A DNA stretch of 64,000 bases, from positions 2,859,501 through 2,923,500 of the forward strand of contig NZ_CP092183.1 in NCBI RefSeq assembly GCF_023499255.1, written 5' to 3'. The notes beneath the pieces are model-generated. The model made no database searches. It had not been told where the DNA came from and saw only the letters and a program-made list of their open reading frames with translations. Positions within the stretch are counted from its first letter, which is position 1; each line of letters begins with the position of its first letter. Position numbers and translations under genes: made by a program. Source of the DNA: Couchioplanes caeruleus. Its GTDB lineage: Bacteria; Actinomycetota; Actinomycetes; Mycobacteriales; Micromonosporaceae. Positions 56,601 to 64,000 of the stretch are shown here, piece by piece.

Positions 56601-56608
56601 AGGTGGGT

Positions 56609-57610
56609 ATGGGAATCCGGGTCGCTGTGGCCGGGGCCAGTGGATATGCCGGGGGTGAGCTGCTGCGCCTGATCGCCGGCCACCCCGAGCTCGACCTCGT
56701 GGCCGCCACGGCGCACACGCAGGCGGGTACGCCCGTCGCGGCCGTGCACCCGCAGCTCGCGGGGTTGGACCTGACGCTCGGGGCCACCGATGCCGTCACC
56801 TTGAGCGACGCCGACCTCGTCTTCCTCGCGCTCCCGCACGGGCAGTCGGCGGCCCTCGCCGCGCAGCTGCCCGGCGGGGTGAAGATCGTCGACCTGGGCG
56901 CGGACTTCCGGTTGCGCGACGCCGCGGCCTGGGAGCGCTACTACGGCGGCGCGCACGCCGGCACGTGGACGTACGGCCTCCCCGAGCTGCCCGGGCAGCG
57001 CGAGGCGGCCGCCGCCAGCGACCGGGTCGCCAACACCGGCTGCTACGCGGCCACGATCACGCTCGCCCTCGCCCCGCTGATCGCCGCCGGGGTCGCCGAT
57101 CCCGCCGACGTCGTGGTGGTCGCCGCCTCCGGCACGTCCGGGGCCGGCCGGGCGGCGAAGGTGAACCTGCTCGGCAGCGAGGTGATGGGTGACCTGTCGC
57201 CGTACAAGGTGGGTGCCCACCAGCACGTGCCGGAGATCAAGCAGGCCACCGGCGCCGACTCGCTGTCCCTGACGCCGGTGCTGGCCCCGATGCCGCGCGG
57301 GATCCTCGCGACCGTCACGGCGAAGCCGATCGGGCGTACGCACCCGCGCGACGTGCTGGCCGCGGCGTACGCGGACGAGCCGTTCGTGCACCTGCTGCCG
57401 GAGGGCGCCTGGCCGCACACCGCGGCGACGCTCGGATCCAACTCGTGCCACCTGCAGGCGACGCTGGACGTCGACTCCGGGCGCATCGTCGTGGTCAGCG
57501 CGCTGGACAACCTCGGCAAGGGCGCCGCCGCGCAGGCCGTACAGTGCGCCAACCTGATGCTCGGCCTGCCCGAGACGGCCGGCCTGTCGGTGTTCGGGGT
57601 GGCGCCGTGA
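56609..57610 (+). CDS. argC: N-acetyl-gamma-glutamyl-phosphate reductase
   Basis: 333 residues from ATG 56609 (CGGAGG lies five bases upstream; GTG 56603 would remove that site). It reduces N-acetylglutamyl phosphate to the semialdehyde, third step of arginine synthesis. The N-terminal GASGYAGGELLRLI binds NADP, the catalytic Cys is in VANTGCYATI near residue 148, and HQHVPEI follows. It is the first gene of the arginine operon under an ARG box. It overlaps argJ (GTGA). Confidence 0.96.
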   Translation: MGIRVAVAGASGYAGGELLRLIAGHPELDLVAATAHTQAGTPVAAVHPQLAGLDLTLGATDAVTLSDADLVFLALPHGQSAALAAQLPGGVKIVDLGADFRLRDAAAWERYYGGAHAGTWTYGLPELPGQREAAAASDRVANTGCYAATITLALAPLIAAGVADPADVVVVAASGTSGAGRAAKVNLLGSEVMGDLSPYKVGAHQHVPEIKQATGADSLSLTPVLAPMPRGILATVTAKPIGRTHPRDVLAAAYADEPFVHLLPEGAWPHTAATLGSNSCHLQATLDVDSGRIVVVSALDNLGKGAAAQAVQCANLMLGLPETAGLSVFGVAP

Positions 57611-58779
57611 CCGTCACCGCCCCCAAGGGTTTCCGCGCCTCCGGCGTCGCCGCCGGGCTCAAGGCCAGCGGCGGGCCGGACGTGGCGCTCGTCGTCAACG
57701 ACGGGCCCGACGCGACCGTCGCCGGCGTGTTCACCGGCAACCGGGTCAAGGCCGCGCCGGTGCTGTGGAGCCAGCAGGTGCTCAAGGGCGGCGTGATCCG
57801 CGCCGTCGTGCTGAACTCCGGCGGCGCCAACGCGTGCACCGGCACGCAGGGCTTCCGCGACACCCACGCCACCGCCGAGCACGTCGCCTCGGTGCTGCGT
57901 GGCGGGCCGAAGCCGCTGCTCATCGGGGCCGGCGACGTCGCGGTCTGCTCCACCGGCCTGATCGGTGAGCTGCTGCCGATGGACAAGCTGCTGCCCGGCG
58001 TCACCGCGGCGGTCAAGCAGCTCGGCCCGGACGGCGGCGAGGCCGCGGCGACGGCGATCATGACCACCGACACGGTCGCCAAGAACGTGCACGTGGTCCA
58101 GGAGGGCTGGTCGGTCGGCGGGATCGCCAAGGGCGCCGGGATGCTCGCCCCCGCCCTGGCCACCATGCTCGTCGTGCTGACCACGGACGCGGTCGCCGGC
58201 TCGGAGGCGCTCGACACCGCGCTGCGCGAGGCCACCCGGGTGACGTTCGACCGCATCGACGCCGACGGCTGCATGTCCACCAACGACACCGTCCTGCTGC
58301 TGGCCAGCGGCGCCTCGGACGTGCAGCCCAGCCAGGAGGAGCTGACCGCCGCGGTCACCGCCGCCTGCCACGACCTCGCGCAGCAGCTCATCGCCGACGC
58401 GGAGGGCGCGACCAAGCACGTCGCGATCCAGGTGCTGGGCGCCGCCAGCGAGGCCGACGCGGTCGAGGTCGGCCGGTCGGTGGCGGGGAACAACCTGGTC
58501 AAGACCGCGCTGTTCGGCAACGACCCCAACTGGGGCCGCATCCTCGCCGCCGTGGGTACGACCGGCGCGGCGTTCACCCCGGACCGCATCGACGTGGGCG
58601 TGAACGGCGTGTGGGTGTGCAAGGGCGGCGCCGCCGCGGAGGACCGGTCCAAGGTGGATCTGCGTGGCCGGGACGTCACGATCCAGGTGCACCTGCACGA
58701 GGGGGAGATGGACGCGACGATCTGGACCACGGATCTGAGCCACGCGTACGTGCACGAGAACTCGGCGTACAGCACATGA
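57607..58779 (+). CDS. argJ: Bifunctional ornithine acetyltransferase / N-acetylglutamate synthase
   Basis: 390 residues from GTG. It recycles the acetyl group between acetylornithine and glutamate. The precursor self-cleaves at the Thr in [16 protein letters not shown] near residue 185; other markers are [13 protein letters not shown] and IAVG-type C-terminal [13 protein letters not shown]. It overlaps both neighbours by four bases. Whether it is mono- or bifunctional cannot be told from sequence; no argA is present here, favouring the bifunctional form. Confidence 0.96.
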
Positions 58780-59638
58780 CCCCGCAGGAGAAGGCGGCCG
58801 TCCTCATCGAGTCGCTGCCGTGGCTGGAACGCTTCCACGGCTCGACCGTCGTCATCAAGTACGGCGGCAACGCGATGATCAAGCCGGAGCTGCAGCGCGC
58901 GTTCGCGGCCGACATGGTCTTCCTGCGGTACGCCGGCATCAAACCCGTCGTGGTGCACGGCGGCGGCCCGCAGATCTCGGCCATGCTCGGCAGGCTCGGC
59001 ATCGAGAGCGAGTTCCGCGGCGGCCTGCGCGTCACCACGCCCGAGGCGATGGACGTCGTGCGCATGGTGCTCGTCGGCCAGGTCGGGCGCGAGCTCGTCG
59101 GGCTGATCAACGAGCACGGCCCGTTCGCCGTGGGCCTGTCCGGCGAGGACGCGCGGCTTTTCACCGCCGTACGCCGGCACGCGGTCGTCGACGGTGAGCC
59201 GGTCGACATCGGCCAGGTCGGCGACGTGGCGTCCGTGGACACCTCGGCCGTCGACGACCTCATCGCCGCCGGGCGCATCCCGGTCGTCGCCACCGTCGCG
59301 CCCGACGCCGACGGGGTGGTGCACAACGTCAACGCCGACACCGCCGCGGCCGCGCTGGCCGTCGCGCTCGGCGCCCGCAAGCTGGTCGTGCTCACCGACG
59401 TGCCCGGCCTTTACACCAACTGGCCGGACACGTCGTCGCTCACCTCGCAGATCGACGCCGACGCGCTGGCGAAGCTGCTGCCGGGCCTCGAGTCCGGGAT
59501 GGCGCCCAAGATGGAGGCCTGCCTGCGCGCCGTGCAGGGCGGGGTGCCCGCCGCGCACGTCGTCGACGGCCGGGTCCCGCACTCGACGCTGCTCGAAGTC
59601 TTCACCTCGGAAGGATTCGGAACGATGGTGGTCCCCTC

Positions 59639-59642
<4 letters not shown>
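58776..59642 (+). CDS. argB: Acetylglutamate kinase
   Basis: 288 residues, ATG in an ATGA overlap with argJ. It phosphorylates N-acetylglutamate, the arginine-inhibited step in many bacteria. Amino acid kinase fold: [14 protein letters not shown] at the start, [13 protein letters not shown] near 60, [15 protein letters not shown] and [15 protein letters not shown]. The N-terminal helix ([16 protein letters not shown]) is the extension linked to arginine inhibition. It overlaps argD by ATGA. Confidence 0.97.
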
Positions 59643-62218
<2,576 letters not shown>

Positions 62219-62222
<4 letters not shown>

Positions 62223-63121
62223 TCGCGCAGCAGCCCGCCGTCGAGGCCTTCTTCCCGGGCTTCGCCGACAACATGCAGAAGCTCCAGGCCCGCGGGCTCG
62301 AGTTCTACCTGGCCTCCAACGACACGCTGCGCCCGTTCCTCAACGAGGCGCCGTACGGCCACAAGCTCACCTGGCTGGACTTCACCGAGACCACCGGCGA
62401 CAAGGGCTGGGACACCGGCGAGTTCCTCAACCTGTTCAACGTGATCAACGGCATCGCGTTCGGCGACCGCGGCATCCCCATGCCGCAGTGGGTGATGGTC
62501 GACCTCATCCTCATGCCGTCGGCCGCGGTGATCGCCGCGCTGCCCCAGGCGCAGTTCACCGAGACGCTGGAGACCAGCGCGTTCGACGAGGACGCCAAGC
62601 GGCACCTGCGCGCGGTCTTCGACAAGGTGAAGCAGAGCGACTACAACGGCCCGATCCCGATCGGCGGCTACTGCGCGGCGCCCAGCGCGGCCCCCGGCAC
62701 CTGGGTCGGCTGGTCGCTGTGGTCGGTGATGACCAACGCCGGGCTGGGCCGCGCGCTCAAGGCCCTGGCGCTCTCGGTCTACCAGGCCCGCAAGCTCGAC
62801 GGCGTCACCCAGTACGACAACACCGCGCTGCGCGTGCACACCCGCTTCGGCCGGCTGCACATCCTGGTCGCGACCGTGCCGTTCCACACCTCGCCCGGCT
62901 CGTTCGTCTACGAGAACGACTTCACGGTGCCCGTGGCCGAGCGCGAGCCGGAGCCCACGTTCCTGCTCGACCCGTTCGACTACGAGCGCCAGCGCGCCAT
63001 GCAGAAGGCCATCGAGGCCCGGCAGTCCACCTACTACGTGCTCGCCCCCGGCCACCTCACGAAGGATGGGACGTCGTACGTGCCGATCCTCGAACTCCCG
63101 TACTCGCCCGAAGGAAACTGA
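62219..63121 (+). CDS. Unrecognised 300-aa protein between argR and argG
   Basis: 300 residues from GTG in a GTGA overlap with argR; its TGA shares its last base with the argG ATG. I do not recognise the family. It has no signal peptide or clear membrane helix; it is rich in aromatic residues ([42 protein letters not shown]), contains a single Cys in GGYCAAPS, and ends [10 protein letters not shown]. Codon use matches the neighbours. The position suggests a role with ArgG or arginine or a by-product, but no catalytic motif is visible. Confidence 0.85.
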
Positions 63122-64000
63122 TGTCCAAGCGCAAGATCGTCCTCGCGTTCTCCGGCGGCCTCGACACCTCGTACGCCCTGGTGTCCCTGCGTGAGCAGGG
63201 CTGGGAGGTGCTGACCGCCAACATCGACACCGGTGGCCTGCACAGCGGCGAGGCCGACGTGGTCCGCAAGCGCGCCGAGGAGCTGGGCGCGGCGCAGCAC
63301 TTCGTCATCGACGCCCGCGAGGAGCTCTACGCCCGCGTCATCACGTACGCGATCAAGGCCAACTACCTGCGCAACGGCGGCTACCCGTCGTGCGTGGGCG
63401 CCGAGCGGCTGGTGCAGGCCGAGAAGGTCGTGCAGGCGGCGATCGACAACGGCGCGGACGCGGTGGCCCACGGCTCCACCGGCGCCGGCGCCGACCACGT
63501 GCGCTACGACTCGGTGATCCGCGCGCTCGCCCCGCAGATGGAGATCATCACGCCGATCCGCGACGAGCGGCTGACCCGCGAGTACGAGCGCGACTACCTG
63601 CGCGAGCGCGGCTTCGAGACGCCCGAGAAGGTCACCACCTACTCGATCAACGAGGGCCTGATCGGCACGTCGATCGGCGGCAAGGAGACGTACGGCTCCT
63701 GGGACTACCTGCCCGAGGACGCGTGGACGTACACGAAGTCGATCGCGGACGCACCCGCCGACGGCGTCGAGCTGATCCTCGGCTTCGACAAGGGCGAGGT
63801 CGTCTCCGCGACCACGGCCGACGGCACGCCGATCGAGGGCACCGGCCCGGACGCGCCCAACTACGCGATCCTGCGCGCGCTCAACGTGCTCGCGGCCGAG
63901 CACGGCGTGGGCCGCGGCATCCACATGGGCTCGACGATGGTCGGCAACCTCGCCCGCGTCGGCTTCGAGGCCCCCGGCATGCTCACGCTGATCGCCGCGC
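63121..64000 (+). CDS. argG: Argininosuccinate synthase (atypical type), 5' part
   Basis: The frame is open to the window end; 293 residues are visible, about three quarters of the usual 400. The ATP pyrophosphatase P-loop AFSGGLDTSY is near residue 9. It joins citrulline and aspartate to argininosuccinate. The text differs from common actinobacterial ArgG: TANIDTGGL for AVDVGQG, NYLRNGGYPSCVGAERLVQAE, and HGSTGAGADHVRYD where most have HGCTGKGNDQVRF. It resembles the Bacteroidetes-type ArgG group as I recall it. argH would be expected beyond the edge. Confidence 0.93.
   Translation, partial: MSKRKIVLAFSGGLDTSYALVSLREQGWEVLTANIDTGGLHSGEADVVRKRAEELGAAQHFVIDAREELYARVITYAIKANYLRNGGYPSCVGAERLVQAEKVVQAAIDNGADAVAHGSTGAGADHVRYDSVIRALAPQMEIITPIRDERLTREYERDYLRERGFETPEKVTTYSINEGLIGTSIGGKETYGSWDYLPEDAWTYTKSIADAPADGVELILGFDKGEVVSATTADGTPIEGTGPDAPNYAILRALNVLAAEHGVGRGIHMGSTMVGNLARVGFEAPGMLTLIAA

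Follow-up and report, generated by a model that had tools for sequence, protein, structure and literature searches.

Argininosuccinate synthase, ArgG, is usually regarded as a self-sufficient enzyme. In Bacteroidota, the gene before argG has been described as ArgA2, a predicted N-succinylglutamate synthase backed by fitness data (PMC9026213, PMC7311316). BT3761, a protein of the ArgA2 type, takes part in arginine synthesis and shares more than 50% identity with a protein reported to be an N-acetylglutamate synthase (PMC7311316, PMC9026213), and the ArgG of B. thetaiotaomicron was noted in 2020 as less than 40% identical to any characterised enzyme (PMC7311316). In the human argininosuccinate synthase, citrulline is contacted by Tyr87, Asn123, Arg127, Glu270 and Tyr282, and the change of Glu270 to Gln left the enzyme without activity (PMC13289927). 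Here we describe gene X, which lies directly before an atypical argG in a 64,000-nucleotide stretch of the Couchioplanes caeruleus genome (contig NZ_CP092183.1; hereafter the window). The analysis establishes X as a real gene that is strictly linked to this ArgG in the surveyed genomes and replaced together with it. New here are the predicted GNAT-like fold of X (GNAT, GCN5-related N-acetyltransferase), the finding that the ArgG is akin to those of Bacteroidota and Xanthomonas, and the changes in its citrulline site.

Gene X and its linkage to one ArgG type

Gene X is an open reading frame (ORF) of 300 codons on the forward strand (62219..63121), with a GTG start at 62219 and a TGA stop at 63119-63121. 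Its start overlaps the argR stop (GTGA), its stop shares one base with the argG start (TGATG), and AAGG-containing stretches lie upstream of both starts, the X start and the argG start; X and argG are probably co-translated in the window. The sequence-only reading had described a complete, codon-normal and aromatic-rich gene with one Cys that is not a known arginine-pathway enzyme, and all of this was borne out. Codon usage is normal, like that of neighbouring genes (GC by codon position 0.63/0.44/0.98 in X, 0.74/0.48/0.96 in argF and 0.67/0.45/0.98 in argG), F, W and Y together make up 12% of the residues, a single Cys was counted, and X matches no arginine-pathway enzyme model of Pfam or NCBIfam. 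The gene is present once in the 8.42-Mb single-contig genome. The synonymous to non-synonymous codon differences against five relatives (15:3, 40:19, 41:29, 50:39 and 51:31) indicate constraint at the protein level, and 126 homologous clusters were found among 5.8 billion proteins. A chance ORF was rejected on these grounds of conservation, constraint and homologs. The closest named relative is Nucisporomicrobium flavum (99% identity in X), in a GTDB scan that may omit the window's own genome.

The distribution of X follows that of one ArgG type. X occurs in 46 of the 67 genomes of the genus, and an ArgG of 78-100% identity was found in exactly these 46 and in none of the 21 genomes lacking X. 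The two genes share contig and strand in all 46, with 2-42 bases between the aligned parts. Thirteen of the 21 genomes carry a canonical ArgG (33-36% identity) and eight only an E. coli-type one (24-29%); both names are labels of this analysis, and among the canonical proteins only that of locus L075 was scanned with profiles (NF001770). Three ArgG types, atypical in 46, canonical in 13 and E. coli-type only in 8, thus alternate inside one genus. In 37 of the 46 X-bearing genomes this was the only ArgG match found, and each of the other nine has an extra one, in one case a 65-residue fragment. Among 300 genomes of the family (44 genera), ArgG matches at E <= 1e-65 were confined to these 46. 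The sequence-only reading had suggested a partner, stabiliser or alternative activity linked to argininosuccinate synthesis, and had counted absence beside argG in close relatives against such a link. X is indeed absent from 21 of 67 congeners, all of which carry other ArgG types; the link holds in sharpened form, with the atypical ArgG and not with the operon at large (46/46 against 0/21), while binding, stabilising or modifying ArgG are still proposals.

The pairing recurs outside the genus, in two Solirubrobacterales metagenome-assembled genomes and in a distant low-GC actinobacterium, G199. In the phylum samples, X (296 genomes) and ArgG (396 genomes, E <= 1e-70) were each found in two genomes, and these were the same two; a further match to X in genome G143 was dropped as spurious (E 8e-4, 39 residues, one stop, mostly antisense to a longer ORF). 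Scanning GTDB with two peptide patterns returned 32 X loci, 30 of the Actinoplanes group and the two Solirubrobacterales ones (L066 and L067), with ArgG directly downstream in all 32; this set and that of the genus genomes overlap. The proteins of L066 and L067 are 37-40% (X) and 56-59% (ArgG) identical to those of the window, no other arg gene was detected beside X-argG in the stretches examined, and the L066 genome holds one ArgG match. In G199 (35% GC) the order is argG-argH-X, with X (29% identity) overlapping argH; X was found in 1 of 58 genomes of its order. All these surveys rest on E-value thresholds and the two peptide patterns, which a diverged X could escape.

Within the window, X is the seventh gene of an operon with the order argC-argJ-argB-argD-argF-argR-X-argG. 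We identified argF, argR and argG by profiles, whereas argC, argJ, argB and argD are named from a reading of their translations. L002 denotes a stretch of the same genome that runs past the window end.

56603..57610, forward strand: argC-like ORF that opens the operon (relatives at 81-97% in the 30 X loci of the Actinoplanes group)
57607..58779, forward strand: argJ-like ORF (relatives at 82-97% in the same 30 loci)
58776..59642, forward strand: argB-like ORF (relatives at 84-99% in the same 30 loci)
59639..60796, forward strand: argD-like ORF (relatives at 78-98% in the same 30 loci)
60793..61722, forward strand: argF, ordinary ornithine carbamoyltransferase (NF001986 and TIGR00658 over cut-offs)
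61719..62222, forward strand: argR, arginine repressor (PF02863, PF01316; NF002880 and TIGR01529 over cut-offs)
62219..63121, forward strand: X, 300-residue protein with a predicted GNAT-like fold and a C-terminal extension (ORF, 126 homologous clusters, AlphaFold2 model, structural matches)
63121..64000, forward strand: argG of the atypical subfamily, truncated where the window ends (PF00764, PF20979; complete at L002:8622-9854, 410 aa)
L002:9954-11021, reverse strand: dapE, inverted, just past the window end (TIGR01900, 507 bits, cut-off 304)

In four genomes lacking X the operon runs from argC to argR and continues with a canonical argG and argH; in the operons with X, X and the atypical argG stand at the place of the canonical argG. 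The ornithine carbamoyltransferase and ArgH of these four genomes are 80-85% and 86-90% identical to those of the window's genome. Both enzymes have stayed the same orthologs, so the X-ArgG pair should functionally replace canonical ArgG. A second exchange is suggested in the lineage of G199, whose congener G485 has an E. coli-type argG and argH between apparently the same flanking genes (judged from ORF translations); argC, argJ, argB and argD lie on other contigs in both genomes. These four genes were not found beside X in G199 or in either Solirubrobacterales locus. It appears that the atypical ArgG and X displaced another ArgG in two lineages, and the gene orders suggest two or more moves of X together with ArgG that left the upstream pathway behind.

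Of the 30 Actinoplanes-group loci, 26 have a dapE gene between argG and argH, and two more have it beyond an inverted argH; of the remaining two, one contig ends and one shows no dapE. None of the four X-lacking operons has it, and the dapE query had no match in the G199 (L073) and L066 stretches. Some neighbourhoods are rearranged: argH lies on the strand opposite to argG in L058, L059 and L065, and in L058 and L059 dapE follows past argH on the same strand as argG, as though dapE and argH had been inverted as one segment. The matches to argJ, X and argG in L065 (Actinoplanes liguriensis, KL571294.1) are each split in two by a gap of about 230-260 bases, perhaps through an artefact of assembly. 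G199 also encodes a GNAT protein (L132:7546-8070, reverse strand; PF13302 and PF00583 over cut-offs) that overlaps the end of argC.

The atypical ArgG and its citrulline site

The ArgG of the window is an argininosuccinate synthase by its domains (PF00764 and PF20979), its P-loop SGGLDTS and a TIGR00032 score over the cut-off (274.7 against 268.2 bits). It is the sole PF00764 match found in the genome, with a whole length of 410 residues. Its best model is NF003385, with a score of 311.6 bits that lies below the cut-off of 603; the Xanthomonas ArgG passes this model at 822.7 bits, and the best model of the G199 ArgG is NF001770. In a tree of 26 ArgG rows, which carried long-branch warnings, the window ArgG groups with Bacteroidota and Xanthomonas against the canonical proteins (support 99/98), the X-linked and Bacteroidota proteins fall within a supported clade of 18 rows, and the G199 ArgG is placed with Bacteroidota.

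The set of citrulline contacts known from the human enzyme is incomplete in this ArgG, which has A, G and F at the places of Asn123, Glu270 and Tyr282. Among the best 120 of 905 ArgG homologs, Tyr87 and Arg127 are kept in 119/119, and Asn123 is replaced by A, S or G in 118/119, the one other protein having N. Glu270 is replaced by G or A and Tyr282 by F in 120/120. The change at Asn123 is found in the Actinoplanes-type branch and several metagenomic relatives, but not in G199, L066, L067 or the ArgG cluster P0239. An apparent loss of Glu191 in one alignment was dropped, as it depends on gap placement.

Predicted fold of X and likeness to other GNAT proteins

No clear family match emerged for X by sequence, where the sequence-only reading would have taken a match to a well-studied, arginine-unrelated family as a refutation; it is a structure model that assigns X a fold. 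At E <= 1, X has no match to any Pfam, NCBIfam or PHROGs model. A Pfam domain is found in none of the best 120 of the 126 clusters, and a profile search raised the number of clusters to 132, barely above 126. Where a source names the homologs, they are hypothetical or uncharacterized proteins. In alignment A1, which has 32 members, four Pfam families each have a hit to a single member (E 0.058-0.28), and none of these is a GNAT family. Sequence searches of the PDB gave nothing useful, a search of a viral structure library gave no useful lead (best E 1.9e-3), and a literature search, at the level of listings apart from the papers cited, brought up no paper recognised as naming X.

The AlphaFold2 model shows a GNAT-like fold at about residues 25-238, followed by a C-terminal extension of about 60 residues, and X is accordingly predicted to be a GNAT-fold protein. 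Structural likeness extends to the GNAT-fold proteins NatC, Ard1, RimI and CBU0801 at 7-19% identity in the rows listed. Unlike these, X has no Pfam or profile match, lacks the Arg/Gln of the coenzyme A (CoA) motif, and has two extra helices after the third strand besides the C-terminal extension. Where a GNAT has its CoA loop, and where the model has a strand at 161-169 and a helix at 176-188, lies one conserved element:

62729..62791, forward strand: codons 171-191 of X, a loop and helix in the position of the GNAT CoA loop, with G-x-G and K181 (AlphaFold2 model, conservation)

All rows of alignments A1 and A2 have K181, and it is nearly invariant in A4. The loop pattern G-x-[GA] is present in 114 of 124 homologs; one has N-x-A and nine are unmatched by the pattern. 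In the general motif (R/Q)xxGxG/A, the Arg/Gln place is T or P in most A1 rows.

A plasmid search with ArgG gave 87 records, and the top seven, six from Bacteroidota and one from Xanthomonas, at 37-40% identity, were read. A GNAT-type gene lies directly before argG in all six Bacteroidota records (four are annotated, and two were recognised from their ORFs and their likeness). The order reads argR-GNAT-argG in Parabacteroides and B. finegoldii and GNAT-argG in Phocaeicola, Bernardetia and two Persicobacter records. Like X, these ArgA2-type genes directly precede an argG of the same subfamily, with an annotated argR in front in two of the six records. They differ in encoding 185-231 residues with a cysteine-rich tail, whereas X has 300 residues without those cysteines, and in that genomes with X hold another N-acetylglutamate synthase. 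In hhalign comparisons of X with six ArgA2-type proteins, the match was in register on the CoA loop for alignments A2, A3, A4, A5 and A6 but not for A1, and column shuffles were equally good in 2/200 (A2), 1/99 (A3), 0/100 (A5) and 0/99 (A6) cases. The P values were 0.014-0.037 (A2, A3, A5, A6), 0.21 (A4) and 0.48 (A1), but the HH-suite probabilities only 0.1-3%, and hmmsearch of X against the ArgA2 proteins gave no signal. The likeness of X to ArgA2 is weak and formally non-significant.

The Xanthomonas ArgG (NF003385) is of the same subfamily as the window's and likewise has G and F at the Glu270 and Tyr282 places, and the Xanthomonas sacchari record also has a GNAT gene beside argG. However, this gene lies directly after argG and encodes 150 aa with clear GNAT Pfam hits, while X is upstream and without such hits. 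The same record has a second GNAT gene before argC (L111:10340-10969), possibly the counterpart of the 203-aa GNAT of the X. campestris arginine operon, which had no N-acetylglutamate synthase activity (PMC1865377). The short N-acetylglutamate synthase of actinobacteria (NF005921) is, like X, GNAT-type and arginine-linked, but X does not match that model. A separate gene over the NF005921 cut-off is present in 67 of 67 genus genomes, with and without X (284 bits in the window's genome); a role of X as the sole N-acetylglutamate synthase of the organism was rejected on this ground.

Possible roles of X

The simplest account is that X is a GNAT-fold protein serving one divergent ArgG subfamily, as a dedicated partner or regulator, a reading that we hold tentatively, at slightly less than an even chance. 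X and argG would be inherited and exchanged as a unit. Most likely X would bind ArgG and activate or regulate it, whether by acylating it in a CoA-dependent way or by serving as a subunit that senses CoA or a ligand; the contact, the use of CoA and the direction of the effect are what we infer. In Actinoplanes-type bacteria the pair takes the place of the canonical argG and should still make argininosuccinate from citrulline. Several results weigh against this account. Glu270 and Tyr282 are also changed in five Bacteroidota and Xanthomonas ArgG proteins that were aligned, with no recognisable X beside them, so that these changes mark the ArgG subfamily and not X alone. Among the ArgG clusters P0233-P0239 (60-73% identity) four of seven showed no X row on an equally long contig (three of the four contigs are shorter than 4.3 kb), and 905 ArgG clusters pass 1e-100 against 132 X clusters. 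The pairing is therefore established for the surveyed genomes only, short of the whole subfamily. (Pairing of X and ArgG clusters by equally long contigs, 33 of 37 coinciding and four not, is illustrative only, as it covers 86/120 X and 37/120 ArgG rows partly picked for matching.) Besides the X-linked ArgG, the L067 genome has another ArgG match, at 33%, and a short fragment. As regards the fold, no GNAT Pfam hit was obtained in any of the 32 A1 members, the Arg/Gln of the CoA motif is gone, and profile comparison of X with 14 GNATs of the same genome was near chance (9/99, 20/100 and 4/99 column shuffles equally good), while the same method linked those 14 to the Bacteroidota GNATs with a probability of 79%.

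X could instead be an N-acylglutamate synthase, a strongly diverged counterpart of ArgA2 carried into Actinomycetota with a GNAT-argG cassette. The position of the ArgA2-type genes in the six Bacteroidota records, the arginine role of BT3761 and its identity to a reported N-acetylglutamate synthase (PMC7311316, PMC9026213), the shared 18-row ArgG clade and the in-register CoA loop with few shuffles as good all suit this idea. It nevertheless seems unlikely: the HH-suite probabilities are low and hmmsearch is silent, the short N-acetylglutamate synthase is present regardless of X, and X tracks ArgG, without argC, argJ, argB or argD beside it in G199 and both Solirubrobacterales loci; the greater length of X and its lack of the ArgA2 cysteines are a weaker point. 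We favour the dedicated partner of ArgG over an acylglutamate synthase because of the short synthase in 67 of 67 genomes and because X showed no tracking of the upstream genes. The loss of the CoA-motif Arg/Gln, a two-residue deletion in the loop of L066, L067 and, by alignment, G199, and the strict pairing in the surveyed genomes would also fit a GNAT-like scaffold that is catalytically dead, has no use for CoA and belongs permanently to ArgG as a structural subunit, but the G-x-[GA] loop kept in most homologs and several polar residues invariant in all three alignments make this rather improbable.

We also considered that X acylates the alpha-amino group of citrulline, that this ArgG uses N-acyl-citrulline and that deacylation by an M20 enzyme such as the neighbouring DapE precedes the ArgH step. 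Glu270 and Tyr282 of the citrulline site are missing from this ArgG subfamily, Bacteroides and Xanthomonas lineages have been described with succinyl- or acetyl-citrulline pathways (PMC7311316; PMC1865377), dapE lies near argG in 28 of the 30 loci and in none of the four X-lacking operons, and the candidate desuccinylase of Bacteroides has been described as distantly related to DapE (PMC7311316). However, the published schemes place deacylation before ArgG, the dapE product scores as an ordinary DapE, the stretches of G199 and L066 gave no dapE match, ArgH differs little between X-bearing and X-lacking genomes, and such a route would be wasteful; we regard it as very unlikely. A bolder form of the partner reading, which we consider improbable but worth stating, is a two-component argininosuccinate synthase, in which an ArgG without part of its citrulline clamp needs a GNAT-fold partner to complete, acylate or license the active site; dependence on a neighbouring GNAT may then be ancestral to the subfamily, including Bacteroidota and Xanthomonas.

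In every surveyed genome with a high-identity ArgG, this subfamily altered at Glu270 is accompanied by X. If X controls or enables ArgG, arginine synthesis in Actinoplanes-type actinomycetes would have a new point of control, and the finding might bear on the ArgG subfamily to which the B. thetaiotaomicron protein belongs.
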